From: Bacteroidota bacterium
GTDB taxonomy: Bacteria; Bacteroidota; Bacteroidia; B-17B0; Aurantibacillaceae
Direction of reading: 5' to 3'
Length of the DNA: 64,000 nucleotides
NCBI GenBank assembly: GCA_030692515.1
Contig: JAUXZS010000024.1
Coordinates: 310,001 to 374,000 of the forward strand
Shown: one piece after another, positions 33,004-39,827 of the stretch
Layout: the number at the start of each line of letters is the position of its first letter
Numbering within the stretch: the stretch's first letter is position 1
The notes under the pieces: model-generated
Told to the model about the DNA's origin: nothing
The model's database searches: none
What the model saw: the letters and a program-made list of their open reading frames with translations, nothing else
Translations under genes and position numbers: made by a program

Positions 33004-33408
33004 ATGAAAAAAATATTAGCAATTGCGTTATTAAGTTTAGCTTTTGGAACTAAAGCTCAAACAATCGAATCAGGAAGTCATTCAACTACTGGTTATGTAA
33101 AATCTGATGGAACTATTGAAAACAGTAGTCACTCTACAAAAGGTTACATTAAAAGTAATGGTACAATTGAGAACTCTTCACACTCAACAATTGGTTACAT
33201 TAAAAGTAACGGAACAATTGAAAATAGTAGTCATAGCACAGTTGGTTATGTGAAAGATAATGGGACTGTTGAAAACTCTTCGCATTCAACAATTGGGTAC
33301 ATAAAAGATAACGGAACAGTTGAGAATTCGTCGCATTCAACAATTGGACATGCAAGCGGTGTAAAAAAAGAATGGGCTGCGGTAGTTTTCTTTTTCTTTA
33401 AATTCTAA
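33004..33408 (+). CDS. exported 17-residue-repeat protein (5-fold beta-flower-like)
   Basis: 134 residues: signal peptide 1-19 (ends KAQ), a partial repeat at 21-35, then five 17-residue repeats of GTIENSSHSTxGYIKSN (residues 36-52, 53-69, 70-86, 87-103, 104-118). It ends with GVKKEWAAVVFFFFKF. The regular repeat with a Gly-Tyr turn should fold into a small closed beta structure. I associate the repeat and the WAAVxFFFFKF tail with Bacteroidota proteins called 5-fold beta-flower proteins, from memory and not checked. The Phe-rich end looks like an outer-membrane or lipid contact. Divergent from the GAF reductase gene. Confidence 0.75.
   Translation: MKKILAIALLSLAFGTKAQTIESGSHSTTGYVKSDGTIENSSHSTKGYIKSNGTIENSSHSTIGYIKSNGTIENSSHSTVGYVKDNGTVENSSHSTIGYIKDNGTVENSSHSTIGHASGVKKEWAAVVFFFFKF
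33109..33357 (+). repeat. 51-bp tandem coding repeat, five units
   Basis: Five in-frame units of 51 nt encoding the 17-residue repeat of the preceding gene. Codons vary at third positions between units while the amino acids stay the same, which indicates selection on the protein rather than recent slippage. Confidence 0.85.
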
Positions 33409-33433: not shown

Positions 33434-33508
33434 AAGCCACGAATTTCACTAATTAACACTAATCTAGGATTAAACAAGCTTGGTAAAAATTCGTGGAATT
33501 CGTGGCTT
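33434..33508. repeat. inverted repeat between convergent genes
   Basis: AAGCCACGAATTTCACTAATT (from 33434) pairs imperfectly with the right arm AATTCGTGG...GAATTCGTGGCTT ending at 33508. The right arm reaches into the stop codon of the minus-strand hydrolase gene (33507-33509). It may act as a bidirectional terminator. The GCCACGAATT wording is a dispersed repeat I recall from other Bacteroidota. Confidence 0.6.
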
Positions 33509-34274
33509 AAATTATTAATTGCAATCCATCCACGGCTAATTCGATATTGCTTGGTAATTCTTTTGAAACGTTCTCATGTAAACCTAATTGATGAGAGATG
33601 TGGGTAAAATAAGCTTTCCTTGGCTTTAATTCCTTTACTAGTTCAATTGCTTCTTCAAATGTAAAGTGAGAAACGTGAGGTTCTCTTCTTAATGAATTCA
33701 ACACTAAAACATTTAAATCTTTCAATTTATTTTTTTCATTTTCCGCAATAAAATTAGCATCGGTGATGTAAGCAAAATCGTTAACTCTAAAACCCTTTAC
33801 CTGCATTTTATAATGCAAAACATTAATGGGCTGTAATAAAATATCACCAACGTAAAAAGGTTCTTCGTCAAAATTTGTAATATCAATTTCTGGAATACCG
33901 GGATATTTTTCTTCAGAAAAAATATAAGCAAACTCTCTATGCAAAGCTTTTTCAACATTTTTGGTTGCATAAACCGGCATGCGCATTTTATTGATGAAAT
34001 TAAAGGCCTTTACTTCATCTAAACCCGCAATATGATCTTTATGCTCGTGAGTATAAACAACAGCATCTAACCGTTTAATTTTTTCGCGTAAAAGTTGGTA
34101 CCTAAAGTCAGGTCCTGTATCAATAATTAAACGCGTTTTTTCGGTTTCAATTAAAATTGAAGAGCGTAAACGTTTATCTCTAGAATCATCACTGCTGCAT
34201 ACCTCGCATTCGCATGCAACAAGTGGCACTCCTTGAGAAGTTCCGGTACCTAAAAATGTAACTTTAATTGACAA
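33507..34274 (-). CDS. metallo-beta-lactamase-fold hydrolase (PhnP-like)
   Basis: 255-residue MBL-fold phosphodiesterase-type enzyme. The N-terminus VTFLGTGTSQGVP and the Cys cluster C21/C23/C26 (CECEVC) are typical of PhnP and related proteins, where three Cys bind a structural zinc. The active-site motif is THEHKDH (H76, H78, D80, H81), with further ligands in YITDANF and FTHISHQLG. PhnP hydrolyses cyclic phosphoribosyl phosphates, but this subgroup is widespread without phosphonate genes, so the substrate is open. The start is TTG at 34274 (two residues before the usual VTFLGTG core); no ATG fits. Same strand as the copper-type cassette but separated by 50 nt. Confidence 0.88.
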   Translation of the reverse strand: MSIKVTFLGTGTSQGVPLVACECEVCSSDDSRDKRLRSSILIETEKTRLIIDTGPDFRYQLLREKIKRLDAVVYTHEHKDHIAGLDEVKAFNFINKMRMPVYATKNVEKALHREFAYIFSEEKYPGIPEIDITNFDEEPFYVGDILLQPINVLHYKMQVKGFRVNDFAYITDANFIAENEKNKLKDLNVLVLNSLRREPHVSHFTFEEAIELVKELKPRKAYFTHISHQLGLHENVSKELPSNIELAVDGLQLII

Positions 34275-34324: not shown

Positions 34325-35326
34325 TTATTTTTTATTTCTTATTAAAAATTTATCTTGAACAAAATTATATGTTAATCCAATTACAAATCTACCTGCATTA
34401 GCCAAACTTTGGCTAGAAACTCTTTCATAAACATTAAATTGATAGGAAGTGTTTAAAACAAAATTCTTGTAATTAACATCTAAACTTGGCCCTAATAAAA
34501 GCACATTAATATTTGTTCCATTAATTATTTTTTTATCAATAAATAATCCTTCGCTATATTCATAATTTGCAAAAACTGCTGGAAAAATTTTTACTTTATT
34601 AATTTCTAACTTGGCAAAAATAGTTATTATTTGATTGTAAGAATTAGCATAACGTTCGTTAAATTTATTTGTTCCATTAACCTTAAATAAACAATTAGTG
34701 TTTATACCAAACCAATTTTTACTTAACAAGTAATTTAAATAATAAAAATGATCAAAACTGCCAGTACCATTCTGATTTAACAAATTCATCCTTTGATAAT
34801 TGGTGTTTTGTTTGTCAAAAATTCCAACTGGTAATTTTATTCCTACGCCTGCAATTAATCTTTGTTTTAGCGAGAAACCGTTTAATCTTTTTATGAGATG
34901 ATATCCCGAATAGAAAGTGGGATCGGCTAAACCAGAATTTGTATTTTTTGATTCATCATATTTGGTTTTAATTTGCTGAACCGGTAAAATAAAATTTATT
35001 TCTAATCGCGGATGCAAAAAATATTTACCTCTTAATTCTATAATTTTATACGACTCGTAATCTTTACTAGAGTGATTATTAATCACTGTTCCAGAATCGC
35101 CTAGTGTTGAGGATGGATCGTGCATGGTTTTGTATGCGCCAGGAATTAAAAAACGAGAAGTTTCTTGATAATTACGATATCCATTAAAAACTCTGTAGCG
35201 ATGTAAAAGCATTAATTGACTTTGATTATCGTATGGAGTTATTCCCATAAAACCACCACACAAATCGCAAGCAATTGTTTTACAAGTAAAAAATAATAAT
35301 AATATGGTTATTCTTAAAAATTTCAT
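34325..35326 (-). CDS. outer-membrane barrel protein with N-terminal CxxC, MbnP/MbnH-associated
   Basis: 333 residues from the ATG at 35326 (a further ATG at 35350 adds eight residues before the signal). The signal peptide ends in TIA, and the mature protein begins with CDLCGGFMGITPYDNQSQ, a CxxC motif at the new N-terminus that could bind metal. The rest is a beta barrel (YRVFNGYR, YFLHPRLEINFILPVQ, IAGVGIKLPVGIFD and many more strands) ending in FVIGLTYNFVQDKF. Similar proteins with this CxxCG start sit beside MbnP/MbnH genes in other Bacteroidota, as far as I recall. Last gene of the cassette. It may be the channel or receptor for the metal. Confidence 0.7.
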   Translation of the reverse strand: MKFLRITILLLFFTCKTIACDLCGGFMGITPYDNQSQLMLLHRYRVFNGYRNYQETSRFLIPGAYKTMHDPSSTLGDSGTVINNHSSKDYESYKIIELRGKYFLHPRLEINFILPVQQIKTKYDESKNTNSGLADPTFYSGYHLIKRLNGFSLKQRLIAGVGIKLPVGIFDKQNTNYQRMNLLNQNGTGSFDHFYYLNYLLSKNWFGINTNCLFKVNGTNKFNERYANSYNQIITIFAKLEINKVKIFPAVFANYEYSEGLFIDKKIINGTNINVLLLGPSLDVNYKNFVLNTSYQFNVYERVSSQSLANAGRFVIGLTYNFVQDKFLIRNKK

Positions 35327-35381
35327 AATGATTGAGTTAAAATCAATCATTATACTTTAGTAACAAATTTAGTTTAATCTC

Positions 35382-35750
35382 TTATTCGGTAACTGCAATA
35401 TCTATTTCTACAGTTTCTTTATTCCGAATATTTACTGGAACACCACCTTTTACAGTATGAGGAGCAGGAACATCCTCATCATAACCTACAGCAAATAAAT
35501 AATAATCGCCTTTATAACATTTAATGCTATAATTTCCATTGGCATCTGCTCTTACTTTACTATCATATAAAGTGGTATCGTTGCCAGGAAATTCTTTTGC
35601 ATTAAATTTTATAAAAACGGTTGCGTTGCCAATTATTTTAGCATGGTGTTTAACAACGCCTCTAATTAAAGCATTTCCATTTAATTCGTTTTTTTTACAT
35701 GAAAAAAAAGCAAGGCTTAAAAAGAGAAAACTATAAAATAAATTTTTCAT
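35382..35750 (-). CDS. small lipoprotein with transthyretin/CarboxypepD_reg-like fold
   Basis: 122 residues. The lipobox AFFSC puts the lipidated Cys at residue 18, followed by two Lys. The mature part is one beta-sandwich (RGVVKHHAKIIGNATVFIKFNAKEFPGND, then DANGNYSIKCYKGDYYLFAVGYDE), which matches carboxypeptidase-regulatory-like domains. It starts 3 nt after the stop of the MbnH-like peroxidase gene, so it belongs to the same operon. The sequence gives no catalytic motif, so a structural or binding role near the outer membrane is the most that can be said. Confidence 0.7.
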   Translation of the reverse strand: MKNLFYSFLFLSLAFFSCKKNELNGNALIRGVVKHHAKIIGNATVFIKFNAKEFPGNDTTLYDSKVRADANGNYSIKCYKGDYYLFAVGYDEDVPAPHTVKGGVPVNIRNKETVEIDIAVTE

Positions 35751-35753
35751 GGT

Positions 35754-36803
35754 TTAATAATTAGGGTCGGCAAATCGTTTATCTGCTAAAAATTTATAAT
35801 CTGTAAGTGTATTTAAAAAAGCAATTATATCTTGCTTATCTTGTGAAGAAAGTGGCAAACCATTATTTAGTAGTAATGGATCGAGATTAATTAAATTAGG
35901 TTTTACATTAGCATAATGATCTAAACATTGTTGTAAAGTATTAAATCGCCCATCGTGCATATAGGGCGCTGTTTTTGCAATATTTCTTAAACTTGGTGTT
36001 TTAAATTTGTATTTATCTTGTGGCGAATTAGTAATATGTTCTCTGCCAATATCATTAACTAAAGGGTTTACGGCTAAGCCATTACTTCTAAAATCAAAAT
36101 CCGAAAATAAAGGCTCTTTATGGCAAGTATTACAATTGGTTAAAAATAAATTATACCCTCTTAACTCTGCATCCGACAATTCAACATTATTTTCGCGGCG
36201 TTTATATAAATCAAATTTACTATTGTAAGAATACATTAGCCCCATAAACTGAGTCATGGCTCTAAACATATTTTGACTACTCACAACCTCAGTACCAAAA
36301 GCCTTTAAGAACATATTTCTGTATTTGCTAGAGGCTTGTAATTTTACAATAACTGGATTAATATTTGCGCCCATCTCAAGAGTATTACTTATAGGAGCAA
36401 GAGGTTGAACTTCAATATGGTTAACACCCCCATCATGCATAAAAAGTGGATGCCAAGTTAAATTAAATAAACCAGGAGAATTTCTTGTACCTACTCTATC
36501 ATAAATACCATGACTAACATTATGGTCGGCATGAGCAAATGCCACAAATTGTTGATGACAGCTACCGCAAGAGATAGTACTATCTTCACTTAAAATAGGG
36601 TCATAAAATAAAGCTCTACCCAAAACAAATTTATCTTCGCTTATAGTATTTACACTAAACGAATAAATTGGCTGAGGCCAACCCAGGGGGACGACCTCAA
36701 CCAAATTATCGGATGGTAAGGGCTCTATAATTTTTGGATCAACCTTACAGGAAGCAAAAATTAAAAAACCAAACAAAAAAATTATAATTGCAAACTTATT
36801 CAT
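35754..36803 (-). CDS. dihaem cytochrome c peroxidase/MauG family protein (MbnH-like)
   Basis: 349-residue lipoprotein (lipobox IFASC, Cys19). Two covalent haem sites are visible: CGSCH at 79-83 and CNTCH at 224-228. Typical MauG/CcpA surroundings include FVLGRALFYDPILSED, NSPGLFNLTW, FMHDGG and FKTPSLRNIAKTAPYMHDGRF. Length and order fit bacterial dihaem peroxidases. The stop codon of the MbnP-like gene overlaps its start (TAATG), a context that points to MbnH, the MauG homologue that oxidises a Trp of MbnP to kynurenine in copper-uptake systems. Electron source and true substrate unproven. An ordinary cytochrome c peroxidase role is the alternative. Confidence 0.85.
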   Translation of the reverse strand: MNKFAIIIFLFGFLIFASCKVDPKIIEPLPSDNLVEVVPLGWPQPIYSFSVNTISEDKFVLGRALFYDPILSEDSTISCGSCHQQFVAFAHADHNVSHGIYDRVGTRNSPGLFNLTWHPLFMHDGGVNHIEVQPLAPISNTLEMGANINPVIVKLQASSKYRNMFLKAFGTEVVSSQNMFRAMTQFMGLMYSYNSKFDLYKRRENNVELSDAELRGYNLFLTNCNTCHKEPLFSDFDFRSNGLAVNPLVNDIGREHITNSPQDKYKFKTPSLRNIAKTAPYMHDGRFNTLQQCLDHYANVKPNLINLDPLLLNNGLPLSSQDKQDIIAFLNTLTDYKFLADKRFADPNY

Positions 36804-37588
36804 TAATTATGTACGTGCTCAAAGCTAATCATATCTGCATAATTATCTGCATAGGTTTTTGCATTAACGCCTGTAGACATTTGAAAAAATTGTGTTGCAA
36901 CATTGATAGTTGTAGGATTCTTGAAGAATTCATTTAAATCAACAGACAAATGAATCATTGGTGAATTACTGCCAGTAATATTTGAAGTTGTGCTTGCGAA
37001 ATTAAAATTAAAATTACGCTGTGTTTTATTTACACCACCAAAACCACCAATATGATAAGTTAATCCTTTTCCAGTAGAACCTGATTGTGGCGATGAGCCT
37101 TCTAATTTAAACATAATGTATCCGCTAGTCCAAGTCCAGAACATACCCTTTGCAGGATCAAGATCTCCTGTTTGAGCGCCTGAATTATTACGGGCACTAT
37201 CAACCCCTAAGGTAAATGACAAAGATTTATAAGAACCTACCGGCACATTTGCAATATTTAAAATAGTAGAAACCGGGCTAGCAACATCTACCAAATGATA
37301 ACTGTTTGCCTCAACAAAAGTTGAATTATCAGTTTTAGTTAGTACCACGTTGCTTATATAATATTTTAAAGTTGATATTTTAAAAGTATCCAGATTTGCA
37401 TTTACATAACTTTGAACAAAATCTAAAGGTAAAGTATCAACCATATGTTCAAACTCAAGTTTTAAAGTACCGGTTGTTGGCGCTGGAGTTACAGGAGTTG
37501 GTTCTGGCTCAGGATCTTTAGCGTCCTTTTTACATGCAACAAAGCTTATTAATAAAGCAATAGCGAAAAATTTTATTATAATTTTCAT
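36803..37588 (-). CDS. MbnP-family lipoprotein, copper-related
   Basis: 261 residues from ATG 37588, chosen because it starts the signal peptide; a further ATG at 37630 adds 14 residues. The lipobox FVAC gives Cys19, followed by a Pro/Thr/Glu linker. The domain matches MbnP: GTLKLEFEHMVD (H48), FKISTLKYYISNV, YHLVD, and the signature GMFWTWTSGYIMFKLEG with W151 and W153, one of which is the candidate for oxidation to kynurenine by MbnH. The protein ends in FEHVHN, giving more His near the putative copper site. Co-transcribed with the MbnH-like gene (TAATG overlap). Confidence 0.85.
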   Translation of the reverse strand: MKIIIKFFAIALLISFVACKKDAKDPEPEPTPVTPAPTTGTLKLEFEHMVDTLPLDFVQSYVNANLDTFKISTLKYYISNVVLTKTDNSTFVEANSYHLVDVASPVSTILNIANVPVGSYKSLSFTLGVDSARNNSGAQTGDLDPAKGMFWTWTSGYIMFKLEGSSPQSGSTGKGLTYHIGGFGGVNKTQRNFNFNFASTTSNITGSNSPMIHLSVDLNEFFKNPTTINVATQFFQMSTGVNAKTYADNYADMISFEHVHN

Positions 37589-37690
37589 AAATATATTTTT
37601 TATTTTTTTGATGAATTTTGCTTTATGCAATATTACACCTGATTTATAAAGTTAATTAAAATTGTATTAAATAATACATAATTTACTTCA

Positions 37691-37742
37691 TTTAACACCT
37701 TATATAAACTAAGAATAGTTAATGTTGTGTTAAACAAAAATA
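37691..37742 (-). promoter_or_regulatory. candidate promoter and operator upstream of the MbnP-like gene
   Basis: On the minus strand an exact -7 TATTTTTG (37735-37742) is followed at once by an inverted repeat TTTAACAC (37691-37698) / GTGTTAAA (37727-37734), with 28 nt between the arms, overlapping the expected transcription start. It lies 100-150 nt before the MbnP start. It could give the operon its own promoter. Confidence 0.35.
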
Positions 37743-37768
37743 AATCGTAAAAAAATCTGATTATGAAA

Positions 37769-38146
37769 TTAAACAGTTGGTGGCTTAAATAAAATTGATG
37801 ACACACCTTTTTTTAGTTTTGCCTCAAAATTTAAGTTTATTATTGTACAAAATTTACTCAGAGGATAAAATGTAATTAAGTTCATAACTGCATCTTCAAC
37901 TTTGGTAATTTTAATCTCTGAGCCAGGGTTTTTAGAAGATTGAGGCTCTTCTTTTTCGGATAATTTTACCAGTTCCTTTTCCATGGCACATTTTCCCTTA
38001 CAACAAGAATCTTCTTCTTCGTCCTTATTTTCGCACAAAACTTCGGCATAATATTCTTGATTAATAATATAACCTATACAAACCTGCAATTTGGCAAATA
38101 ATGAAAACAGAAGTGAAAATAAAAGTATGTACGAAACAATCTTCAC
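37769..38146 (-). CDS. small Cys-rich exported peptide preceding the MbnP-like gene
   Basis: 125 residues with an N-terminal membrane/export segment (KIVSYILLFSLLFSLFAKLQ). A Cys-rich acidic region follows: C23, C38, C48, C49, C53 in LCENKDEEEDSCCKGKCAMEKEL. A Lys/Glu/Ser linker comes next, and a hydrophobic tail ends SSILFKPPTV. I recall similar CENK-x-CxGKC peptides beside MbnP-type genes in flavobacteria, which supports a metal-related role, possibly a sensor or scavenger. The start is GTG at 38146; no ATG lies before the signal sequence. An exact -7 element lies only 5 nt upstream, so the mRNA is probably leaderless. Confidence 0.65.
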   Translation of the reverse strand: MKIVSYILLFSLLFSLFAKLQVCIGYIINQEYYAEVLCENKDEEEDSCCKGKCAMEKELVKLSEKEEPQSSKNPGSEIKITKVEDAVMNLITFYPLSKFCTIINLNFEAKLKKGVSSILFKPPTV

Positions 38147-38151
38147 AGGCT

Positions 38152-38159
38152 CAAATTTA
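38152..38159 (-). promoter_or_regulatory. candidate -7 promoter element (TAAATTTG)
   Basis: Exact TANNTTTG on the minus strand, ending 5 nt before the GTG start of the Cys-rich peptide gene. No clear -33 TTG. Confidence 0.4.
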
Positions 38160-38260: not shown

Positions 38261-39235
38261 ATGGTTTATTTGGATTTTGAAAAACCTATTCAAGATTTAG
38301 AGGAAGAGATTACCAAGCTAAAAGAAGTTGCTTCGAAAAGCAAAGTAGATCTTACCGAAAAAATTAAAGAATTAGAAAGTCATATTACAGCTAAAATCGG
38401 CGAACTCTATTCTGATCTCAGTCCTTGGCAAAGAGTGCAAGTGAGTCGTCACCCTGAAAGACCTTATACTTTAGCTTATATTGAATCTATTTCAAATAAT
38501 TCATTTATTGAATTACATGGCGATAGAACTGTAGGAGATGATAAGGCCATGGTTGGAGGTTTTGGTGAGATTGATGGGCAAACAGTTATGTTTATTGGTC
38601 AGCAAAAAGGTGTTAATACTAAAATGCGTCAAATTCGTAGGTTTGGAATGGCTAATCCTGAAGGGTATCGCAAAGCGCTACGCTTAATGAAATTGGCCGA
38701 GAAATTTAATAAGCCTATTGTTACTTTTATTGATACGCCAGGTGCTTATCCAGGATTAGAGGCAGAAGAGCGCGGACAAGGAGAGGCAATTGCTCGTAAT
38801 TTATTAGAAATGGCGCAATTAAAAGTGCCTGTTATATGTATTATTATTGGCGAAGGAGCTAGTGGTGGCGCATTAGGAATAGGTATAGGTGATAAAGTAT
38901 TGATGTTAGAAAACACATGGTATTCTGTAATATCGCCAGAATCATGTTCGTCTATTTTATGGCGCAGTTGGAGTTTTAAAGAACAAGCGGCAAAGGCTTT
39001 AAAATTAACTTCTCATGACATGAGTGAAAATGGTTTAATTGATGGAATAATTAATGAACCCTTAGGTGGTGCGCACCGTAATCCTGAAGAAATTTTCGCG
39101 ACGGTTAAAGAAGAAATCTTAAAACACTTAACAACATTAAAAAAACTAAATCCAGAAGATAGAATTGAACAAAGAATTAATAAATTTTCCGCAATGGGAG
39201 TAGTTCATGATTTAGAAGTTGAAGCAGAAGCTTAA
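38261..39235 (+). CDS. accA: acetyl-CoA carboxylase carboxyltransferase subunit alpha
   Basis: With AccD forms the carboxyltransferase that transfers the carboxyl group from carboxybiotin to acetyl-CoA, the first step of fatty-acid synthesis. At 324 residues it has the usual AccA length, and the family sequence is plain: [13 protein letters not shown] helix at the N-terminus, [108 protein letters not shown]. Cytosolic. It stands 28 nt before the EF-P gene on the same strand, a pairing seen in other bacteria where efp and accA/accB are linked. Confidence 0.97.
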
Positions 39236-39263: not shown

Positions 39264-39827
39264 ATGGCAGACACAGGAGATATAAACGTTGGTTCGATTA
39301 TTAGATTTAATGGTGACATAGTTCAGATTACAGATTGGCAACACCGAACGCCAGGAAATTTACGTGCATTTTATCAAGCAAAAATGCGCAACTTAAAAAA
39401 TGGTAAACAAACCGAGAACCGTTTTAGAAGTGGCGAAGGTGTTGAGTTGGTAAGAGTAGAATATAAAATGATGCAATACATTTACCTTGAAGGAGATTTT
39501 GCAGTTTTAATGGACACTTCAACTTACGAACAAATACATGTGCCAATAGTAATGTTTGGTGCTGGCGGACGTTTTTTAAAAGAAGGTATGGAAGTTAAAG
39601 TAAGTTTTGAGGGCGAAGAACCAATTATTGCAGAACCACCAACTTTTGTTGAAGCAGAAATTACATATACTGAGCCGGGATTAAAAGGTGATACCGCCAC
39701 TAACACATTAAAATTTGCAACGCTAGATACCGGAACTGAGATAAAAGTGCCATTATTTTTTAACCAAGGAGATTGGGTGAAAATTGATACTCGTACCGGT
39801 GAATATGTTGAGAGAATTAAAAAGTAA
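39264..39827 (+). CDS. efp: translation elongation factor P with non-canonical tip
   Basis: Prevents ribosome stalling at polyproline stretches. 187 residues in the three-domain EF-P layout: N-terminal KOW-like domain with the tip loop HRTPGNLRAFYQ, central OB domain (YIYLEGDFAVLMDTSTYEQI), and a C-terminal OB domain (GLKGDTATNTLKFATLDTGTEIKVPLFFNQGD). The tip residue that is Lys34 in E. coli or Arg32 in Pseudomonas is Asn32 here (PGN), with Leu and Arg following, so neither EpmA lysylation nor EarP rhamnosylation could act in the known way. I recall this tip type from some other Bacteroidota. A hairpin repeat and a terminator follow. Confidence 0.95.
   Translation: MADTGDINVGSIIRFNGDIVQITDWQHRTPGNLRAFYQAKMRNLKNGKQTENRFRSGEGVELVRVEYKMMQYIYLEGDFAVLMDTSTYEQIHVPIVMFGAGGRFLKEGMEVKVSFEGEEPIIAEPPTFVEAEITYTEPGLKGDTATNTLKFATLDTGTEIKVPLFFNQGDWVKIDTRTGEYVERIKK

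Follow-up and report, generated by a model that had tools for sequence, protein, structure and literature searches.

To our knowledge, copper uptake in Bacteroidota has been little described, and the locus examined here raises the question of what a small cysteine protein does at the head of a run of putative copper genes. The window, a 64,000-nucleotide (nt) stretch of DNA from a Bacteroidota bacterium of the family Aurantibacillaceae (assembly GCA_030692515.1, contig JAUXZS010000024.1, positions 310,001 to 374,000), carries between its positions 34325 and 38146 five genes, for a small Cys protein (the Cys peptide), an MbnP-like lipoprotein, an MbnH-like dihaem enzyme, a small lipoprotein, and an outer-membrane barrel. 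We consider it somewhat more likely than not that they form a cassette for copper acquisition, headed by a copper-sensing leader open reading frame (ORF) that acts in cis and belongs to a family of which we found no description. The MbnP/MbnH pair is of a known kind, and the four-gene Bacteroidota cassette in which it stands (Cys peptide, MbnP, MbnH, and barrel) is a new variant; the Cys gene probably represents a new family of copper-sensing leader peptides.

A three-cysteine block and a terminal di-proline

An earlier reading of these genes, made from the DNA letters by themselves (hereafter the sequence-only reading), had described a minus-strand run of five genes. The ORFs are genuine, had been read correctly, and follow one another in the order claimed, from 38146 down to 34325:

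38152..38159, minus strand: promoter-like site TAAATTTG, a match to TAnnTTTG, 13 nt upstream of the Cys-peptide start codon
37769..38146, minus strand: Cys peptide, proposed copper-sensing leader ORF (125 amino acids, GTG start)
37589..37768, minus strand: gap from the Cys peptide to the MbnP ATG (180 nt)
36803..37588, minus strand, from the ATG: MbnP-family lipoprotein (261 amino acids; the ORF opens at TTG 37630; lipobox Cys assigned by eye)
35754..36803, minus strand: MbnH/MauG-like dihaem enzyme (CGSCH and CNTCH; lipoprotein-like N-terminus, ASC, by eye)
35382..35750, minus strand: small lipoprotein (conserved HH)
34325..35317, minus strand, from an internal ATG: outer-membrane barrel (330 amino acids; the ORF opens at 35350; mature N-terminus CDLCGG)

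The reported TAATG overlap of MbnP and MbnH is present (1 nt), 3 nt separate MbnH from the small lipoprotein, and the CDLCGG start of the barrel does lie directly after an apparent signal peptide.

The first product had been called a Cys-rich exported peptide. It does contain Cys and looks exported, but that description omits its most conserved features, a three-Cys block and a di-proline two residues before the stop codon. In the window the protein has a hydrophobic N-terminus, the block C38-x10-C49-x3-C53, and the ending F-K-P122-P123-T-V-stop. Just six columns are invariant in an alignment of 48 sequences (M1, C38, C49, C53, P122, and P123), and the three Cys occur in 111 of 111 aligned members. 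After removal of duplicates (same last 60 residues) and of genes cut by contig ends, 112 distinct members were left, and 109 of them have PP within the last 10 residues, compared with 15 of 1559 other genes of the same loci; the counts for the neighbouring families are 0/154 (MbnP), 5/135 (MbnH), 0/71 (barrel), and 0/45 (small lipoprotein). The search profile does not account for this finding, because an N-terminal-only profile found 112 members of which 108 have PP in the last 10 residues. Among the 110 members with PP in the last 14 residues, 2-4 residues separate it from the stop codon in 98, PP is directly preceded by H, R, K, or Q in 99, and F stands one place farther upstream in 89. The third Cys and the first Pro lie 62-74 residues apart in these 110 proteins (median 67, standard deviation 2.42); the intervening stretch is poorly conserved despite this near-fixed spacing.

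Searches of Pfam and NCBIfam placed the Cys peptides in no family, the Pfam hits of single members (E 0.014 or worse) being attributed to chance, and no description was found in the open-licence literature, although one may exist elsewhere. The family is widespread: its profile matches 159 of 395 Bacteroidota genomes and 71 of 171 genera. HYC_CC_PP (NF047658), likewise a small Cys protein of Bacteroidota in which PP comes late and which in some cases has HMA-like genes beside it (L266 and L269, by eye), was considered as an identity for the Cys peptide and rejected: there is no NCBIfam match, the Cys pattern is another one, and PP stands well before the end in the examples read. HYC_CC_PP itself has matches in 69 of the 87 genomes of the window's order, and a literature search by its name yielded no paper.

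The place of the Cys gene in its operon is also distinctive. The motif TAnnTTTG, which we take to be the Bacteroidota -7 promoter element, occurs at -120..+20 of the Cys gene start in 52 of 112 cases, compared with 11.1 expected from shuffled sequences, and in 46 of those 52 it lies at -36..-5. The corresponding counts are 17/149 for MbnP (12.1 expected), 3/71 for the barrel (5.0), and 2/45 for the small lipoprotein (3.0). The gap after the Cys gene is long, with medians (here, as for the upstream distances below, measured with the longest start codon) of 134 nt to MbnP (n=51), 134 to unlabelled genes (n=11), and 79.5 to the barrel (n=8). Within the rest of the unit the medians are -1 from MbnP to MbnH (n=121), 7 from MbnH to the barrel (n=32), 3 from MbnH to the small lipoprotein (n=33), 45 from the small lipoprotein to the barrel (n=14), and 49 from MbnP to the barrel (n=12).

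No riboswitch or masked ribosome site is put forward for the gap before MbnP, as there is no covarying pair in six sequences. The gap of the window, taken alone, folds better than its shuffles (z -3.34), and the six sequences share no pair changed on both sides. A conserved AT-rich block, TTnAnTAACTTTAT, precedes the MbnP start in the six sequences (37583-37790, minus strand, in the window) and is perhaps a second start site.

Partners of the Cys peptide

The company that the Cys peptide keeps outside MbnP loci was followed in 40 further loci, hand-picked, not random, from among the matches listed; they were chosen for family spread and for lying outside the known barrel loci. In these loci, a TonB-dependent receptor is mostly encoded one or two genes downstream of the Cys peptide. 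Of 35 receptor candidates scanned, a Plug domain was matched in 29 and a receptor barrel in 28; the 35 include one wrong 153-residue protein (L250), leaving at most 34 real candidates, and in some loci the receptor gene is not the immediate neighbour of the Cys peptide but the next one on. TIGR01778 (TonB-copper) matches 20 of the 35 at 1e-5, a limit that is not the model cut-off, in a group of receptor models that hit one another's members. PepSY_TM follows in four scanned cases (L227, L236, L238, and L257), and other followers are SCO1 (L233, L254), PCuAC (L254), COX1 (L239), and YtkA (L225). One locus (L221) joins two such units, in the order Cys peptide, 91-residue protein, SCO1, SOD, Cys peptide, MbnP, MbnH, barrel.

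The literature is cited below by PubMed Central (PMC) number. In Bordetella, the TonB receptor and PepSY_TM are copper-import parts (PMC9426467; PMC12914433). We count the partners outside MbnP loci in favour of a leader role for the Cys peptide because they are the same as, or like, those of the Bordetella leader CruR (PMC9426467; PMC12914433).

Co-occurrence across Bacteroidota

Whether the genes belong together was asked in two sets of genomes. In the phylum set of 395 Bacteroidota genomes, the barrel profile at 1e-15 matches 42 genomes, 41 besides the window's own. Long flanks were opened around 25 of these 41, mostly the best-scoring ones, and together with loci having 1.5-kb flanks 33 of the 41 were examined. 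In all 25 opened loci outside the order, which span ten families other than the window's, MbnP and MbnH adjoin the barrel on the same strand, and a Cys peptide is present in 24. The arrangement Cys peptide-MbnP-MbnH-barrel is found in 22 of the 25 by a reading of the gene rows that counts L202, where an opposite-strand ORF intervenes; the others are L189 (Cys peptide-barrel-MbnP-MbnH), L194 (no Cys gene, on a 6.9-kb contig), and L197 (two inserted genes). In the loci with 1.5-kb flanks (L150-L178), MbnH lies on the same strand in 29 of 29. Co-occurrence across Bacteroidota had been proposed as a check on the sequence-only reading, with rare joint occurrence counting against it, and four of the genes do recur together: the Cys peptide, MbnP, MbnH, and the barrel stand side by side beyond chance.

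Within the order, a strong barrel (>300 bits) is found in 27 of 87 genomes and is beside MbnP in 24; of the remaining ones, that of G071 lies at a contig end. The order also provides 69 MbnP loci with enough flank, 16 having been dropped for a nearby contig end. With distant barrels and one remnant counted as barrels, Cys peptide and barrel occur together in 21 of these loci and are both missing from 46; the barrel is present by itself in 2, and the Cys peptide by itself in 0 (Fisher p 9e-16, with no kinship correction). The 21 include L108, where just a 51-residue remnant of the barrel is left, and L080, whose barrel is a distant one. The barrel is also distant in L145, one of the two barrel-only loci; the remaining one belongs to a second MbnP copy of the L073 cluster. 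A barrel without MbnH directly after that MbnP occurs in 10 of the 69, one of them again the second copy of L073, and there are 11 Cys peptide-MbnP-barrel loci without MbnH in cis when two loci outside the count of 69 are included.

As stated, the claim that five genes form one unit is not borne out; four of them make up the shared core. The small lipoprotein is a local addition, a member of the unit mainly in the window's order: it is found in 0 of the 25 opened barrel loci outside the order, and it is present in two outside MbnP loci (L041 and L042). The claim is further narrowed by the versions without MbnH and by the frequency of MbnP-MbnH without Cys peptide and barrel. In one genome a decayed Cys gene with three stops lies beside MbnP (G005:C5:21379-21638), with no barrel match in that genome, and in another a short barrel remnant follows the small lipoprotein (G034:C92:74512-74583); the Cys gene of G005 and the barrel of G034 seem to be decaying.

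The MbnP/MbnH pair

The identity of the second gene is supported by its Pfam family and by its fold. The window protein matches PF20243 with 188 bits (E 2.1e-55; gathering score 27), and a structure predicted from 30 sequences (predicted local distance difference test, pLDDT, 89) resembles 7l6g with a Foldseek E of 4.3e-10 and a Z of 18.2 (root-mean-square deviation 2.7 over 207 aligned residues). 7l6g is the sole clear structural match of the model, the next entry having a Z of 5.3; by sequence, neither the single protein nor a profile (limit E<=10) matched anything in the PDB. The two Trp residues of GMFWTWTSGY are W151 and W153, as the sequence-only reading had it, and both are invariant in 30 MbnP sequences, in which Met149 is kept at 90% or more. 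WxW occurs in 112 of 113 distinct MbnP homologues (117 of 118 before duplicate removal). In the Methylosinus MbnP, the first Trp of WxW is reportedly converted to kynurenine, and copper is said to be held near a His and a Met.

The third gene encodes a MauG/MbnH-type dihaem enzyme, again as had been read. It matches CCP_MauG of Pfam at 2.1e-46, and its best PDB match is 6e1c, titled 'Di-heme enzyme', which we take to be MbnH. Both CxxCH motifs are present, and C79/C82/H83, C224/C227/H228, and Tyr297 are invariant in 18 MbnH sequences. Tyr297 aligns with a Tyr of 6e1c, at the position that presumably provides the distal haem ligand in MauG/MbnH, in place of Met.

The two proteins are closely paired at the genome level. 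Among the 87 genomes of the order, MbnP is found in 80 and the MbnH profile matches at E<=1e-70 in 79; both are present in 78, neither in 6, MbnP only in 2 (G044 and G066), and MbnH only in 1 (G072). The limit of 1e-70 lets in weaker dihaem matches, and the best matches of G073, G078, and G086, no better than 1e-88, are weak or partial; in G044, an MbnH runs into the contig end (L072). MbnP copies without an adjoining MbnH retain WxW. In all 11 genomes of the order with the Cys peptide-MbnP-barrel form lacking MbnH, and likewise in those of L041 and L042, MbnH is matched at another place, and these loci are therefore uninformative on whether MbnH is needed; it is possible that MbnH acts on MbnP in trans. 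One locus, L071 (G000:C25:53053-54133), holds the lowest-scoring of its genome's four MbnP copies and has an HYC_CC_PP gene divergent upstream and two tandem MbnH-like genes downstream.

The predicted channel and the small lipoprotein

The fifth gene had been read as an outer-membrane channel, and its predicted fold, a channel fold of the COG4313/FapF type, supports that reading. The model has a pLDDT of 77, with residues 7-29 and 59-84 below 50, and superposes on the COG4313 channel 4rl8 with a Z of 24.6 and on FapF (5o65) with a Z of 22.6. The window barrel itself matches nothing in Pfam above cut-off and nothing in the PDB by sequence, and PF13557 is matched by two of seven relatives scanned. 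While sharing the predicted barrel fold of 4rl8 and 5o65, it differs from both in its N-terminal CDxCG, in its identity to them of 12-14%, and in its copper-gene context. C17 and C20 of CDLCGG are invariant in 21 barrel sequences. The small lipoprotein has weak DUF4198/CarboxypepD_reg-like matches, below cut-off.

A second operon type, with no MbnP nearby, consists of a Cys peptide, a distant barrel, and a small lipoprotein (L210, L211, L214, and L216); the distant barrels of L210 and L214 have a CACC N-terminus. In three other loci (L173, L175, and L219) a Cys-peptide gene stands directly after the barrel and is followed by another gene, and leaders in this position may separate consecutive copper units.

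Discussion

The Cys peptide is best understood beside two known leaders. CruR of Bordetella (DUF2946) is exported-looking, has CXXC and, three residues from its end, RAPP, at a spacing of 45 that is conserved to one or two residues; after a 162-nt gap it heads TonB-dependent transporter (TBDT) and PepSY_TM genes, and its homologues head operons with ScoC, PCuAC, and MbnPH-like genes (PMC9426467). Its stall was later shown in vitro (PMC12992588). CutF of Rhodobacter is a sensor exported co-translationally, with a proline-rich end; although earlier conjectured to be a chaperone (PMC9426467), it escaped detection in cells and functions as a leader, and with copper bound it raises translation of its target (PMC9973294). 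The Cys family shares with them an exported-looking small ORF before copper genes, a Cys metal motif, and neighbouring genes for TBDT, PepSY_TM, SCO, PCuAC, and MbnPH-like proteins. The long gap, the promoter motif, and the copper-related partners would also fit the first gene of a copper operon, though 24 of 112 members overlap a same-strand gene or lie <30 nt behind it. By analogy, its C-terminal proline motif, which has other letters and stands at a conserved spacing, may likewise be of the stall type. It differs in its motifs, with C-x10-C-x3-C where they have CxxC/CxxxC and F-[HRKQ]-PP in place of their RAPP or proline-rich end, in its spacing of ~67 as against 45, in having no DUF2946 match, and in belonging to Bacteroidota. 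It is not a member of DUF2946: a search of 24 Cys-family members with PF11162 gave no match up to E 10, with HMMER filters that drop most weak matches, and DUF2946 is itself rare in Bacteroidota (over cut-off in 5 of 395 genomes, and in 11 of 395 at E<=0.001). We infer from the likenesses that the Cys family would work as CruR and CutF do.

The putative copper genes that follow also have known relatives. With the established MbnP/MbnH pair (PF20243; TIGR04052/TIGR04039; 7l6g and 6e1c), the window proteins share the gene pair, the dihaem Tyr position, the MbnP fold, and WxW; they differ from it in that both look lipid-anchored (by eye), score below the NCBIfam equivalog cut-offs, and are coupled to a Cys leader and a CxxC channel. 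We know of no channel or leader in the CorA/CorB and MopE/SACCP systems of methanotrophs. These combine a copper protein, a kynurenine site (in MopE), and a dihaem peroxidase partner at the surface or in secreted form (PMC3912023, PMC3423442, PMC3621798); the MbnP sequence has no marked similarity to theirs (PMC3621798). Pairs of MbnP and MbnH far outside methanobactin producers have been published (PMC3621798), as have operons headed by DUF2946 proteins with MbnPH-like genes (PMC9426467). The sequence-only reading had remarked on the absence of methanobactin genes, and none was noticed, by eye and with no profile search, among the ORFs listed around the cassette.

How might such a cassette work? 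Transcription would start directly before the Cys peptide. The ribosome would make a secretion-like N-terminus and then the C-x10-C-x3-C metal block, and would pause where the ORF closes with F-[H/K/R]-P-P; copper on the Cys block of the nascent chain would decide whether the pause holds, and hence whether the downstream genes are read. If the sign is that of CruR, low copper would mean a stall and an operon that is on. MbnP would be a lipid-anchored copper binder, able to hold Cu(I) once MbnH had oxidised the first Trp of WxW to kynurenine, and the outer-membrane channel with its N-terminal CxxC would pass copper or a copper complex. If about 30 residues are allotted to the ribosome tunnel and 17 to crossing the membrane, as in PMC9973294, a spacing of ~67 residues would put the Cys block beyond the membrane during a pause at PP, which would fit periplasmic copper sensing. 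The weakest step of this scheme is stalling, and the strongest is the association of the Cys block and terminal di-proline with copper-related genes. Of the sensor-like exported peptide put forward by the sequence-only reading, copper sensing is retained, and a CruR/CutF-like leader ORF that would sense during its own synthesis fits better than an exported sensor.

A survey of RAPP/RGPP leaders found those of copper genes in a range of lineages but reported exceptions, among them Bacillota and Bacteroidota (PMC12992588). We incline, if only slightly, to the broader view that Bacteroidota have their own copper-sensing arrest-peptide family, unrelated in sequence to CruR and CutF, marked by C-x10-C-x3-C and ending in F-[HRKQ]-PP-x(2-4)-stop, which heads the phylum's copper-uptake operons. 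Those operons would include TonB receptor/PepSY_TM, SCO1/PCuAC, and the MbnP-MbnH-CxxC barrel cassette. If this is true, the Cys family fills the Bacteroidota gap reported by the survey (PMC12992588), and one short signature marks copper-regulated operons where RAPP/RGPP copper-gene leaders were reported missing. It would also put a name to a cassette of four copper genes whose copper site, derived from Trp, is unusual, point to a new outer-membrane copper channel, and speak for more than one origin of copper sensing by nascent chains that end in a di-proline.

Several observations weigh against a copper-acquisition cassette with a leader at its head. RAPP/RGPP leaders of TonB-related genes occur throughout Gram-negative bacteria (PMC12992588), so the gap that the Cys family would fill is limited to the copper-gene class. 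In vitro, most of the E. coli and B. subtilis RAPP-like sequences assayed (23 in all) failed to stall efficiently (PMC10987492), and F-H-P-P differs from RAPP. In the operon, TAnnTTTG is in some excess at MbnH starts too (17/127, 7.1 expected), gaps leaving the unit are also long (median 86 from the small lipoprotein to an unlabelled gene, n=23), and no conserved RNA fold was found in the Cys peptide-MbnP gap among six sequences. The Cys gene overlaps a same-strand gene or lies <30 nt behind it in 24 of 112 cases; for the others, a same-strand upstream gene is 30-99 nt off in 30 and >=100 nt off in 26, the upstream gene is divergent in 31, and there is none in 1. MbnP-MbnH commonly lacks leader and barrel, as the 46 of 69 loci of the order show, and two strong barrels of the order, in G051 (L205) and G027 (L206), stand alone, with flanking ORF lengths that resemble those of G052 and G025, in which the barrel is preceded by the Cys peptide and MbnP (and MbnH). 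Finally, the window proteins miss the NCBIfam equivalog cut-offs, MbnP reaching 48.2 with TIGR04052 (cut-off 140) and MbnH 209.6 bits with TIGR04039, its best NCBIfam match (cut-off 362.85).

It is also conceivable, if somewhat unlikely, that the Cys peptide persists as an exported protein of the periplasm or membrane, a chaperone or buffer for copper that passes the metal to MbnP or the barrel and for which F-H-P-P is a structural or binding tail. A hydrophobic N-terminus, three invariant Cys, operon partners such as MbnP, TonB receptors, SCO1, and PCuAC, and a gene that is not always first (the 24 of 112 close behind another) would all suit such a protein. Against it stand the near-fixed spacing across a poorly conserved stretch and the closeness of PP to the stop (2-4 residues away in 98 of 110 members), and the promoter motif and long gap suit a leader; CutF, once conjectured to be a chaperone as well, went undetected in cells and acts as a leader (PMC9973294).

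A cassette that serves copper tolerance or export, binding and expelling surplus copper at the surface and induced by it, is unlikely. MbnP could sequester copper, copper-bound CutF raises translation of its target (PMC9973294), and the Cys-peptide/barrel operon of L210 adjoins P-type ATPase, NRAMP, and HMA genes. However, the commonest other partners of the leader are TonB receptors, joined by PepSY_TM, which are parts of copper import in Bordetella, and CorA is copper-repressible (PMC3912023).

Quite improbable, in our estimate, is an MbnP without kynurenine, with the pair serving another redox or metal role, such as iron or a different oxidation of MbnP. The missed equivalog cut-offs and the failure of the MbnP profile to match any solved structure by sequence at E<=10 would agree with it, whereas the fold match to 7l6g, the invariant WxW, the conservation of Met149, the invariant Tyr297 with both CxxCH motifs, and the close genome-level pairing of MbnP and MbnH speak against it. 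That the Cys peptide and barrel adjoin MbnP and MbnH by chance or shared descent and are functionally unlinked to them is very improbable, for although much of the co-occurrence within the order is inherited and modules come and go, the four genes stand together in ten other families and, in the 69 loci of the order, Cys peptide and barrel are nearly always both present or both absent.

Flanking genes

The cassette is flanked by divergent genes for accA (38261-39235, plus strand) and EF-P (39264-39827, plus strand) on one side and by a metallo-beta-lactamase-like gene (33507-34274) on the other, all named by eye from their translations. EF-P relieves di-proline stalls. Lying two genes off, it was considered as a functional partner of the di-proline and rejected, as ORFs of the same lengths (187 and 324) flank relatives with and without a Cys gene; its position beside the cassette is probably a coincidence. 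Farther out, at 33004-33408 (plus strand), is a gene for a small exported-looking protein built of near-identical SSHSTKGYIKSNGTIEN-like repeats.

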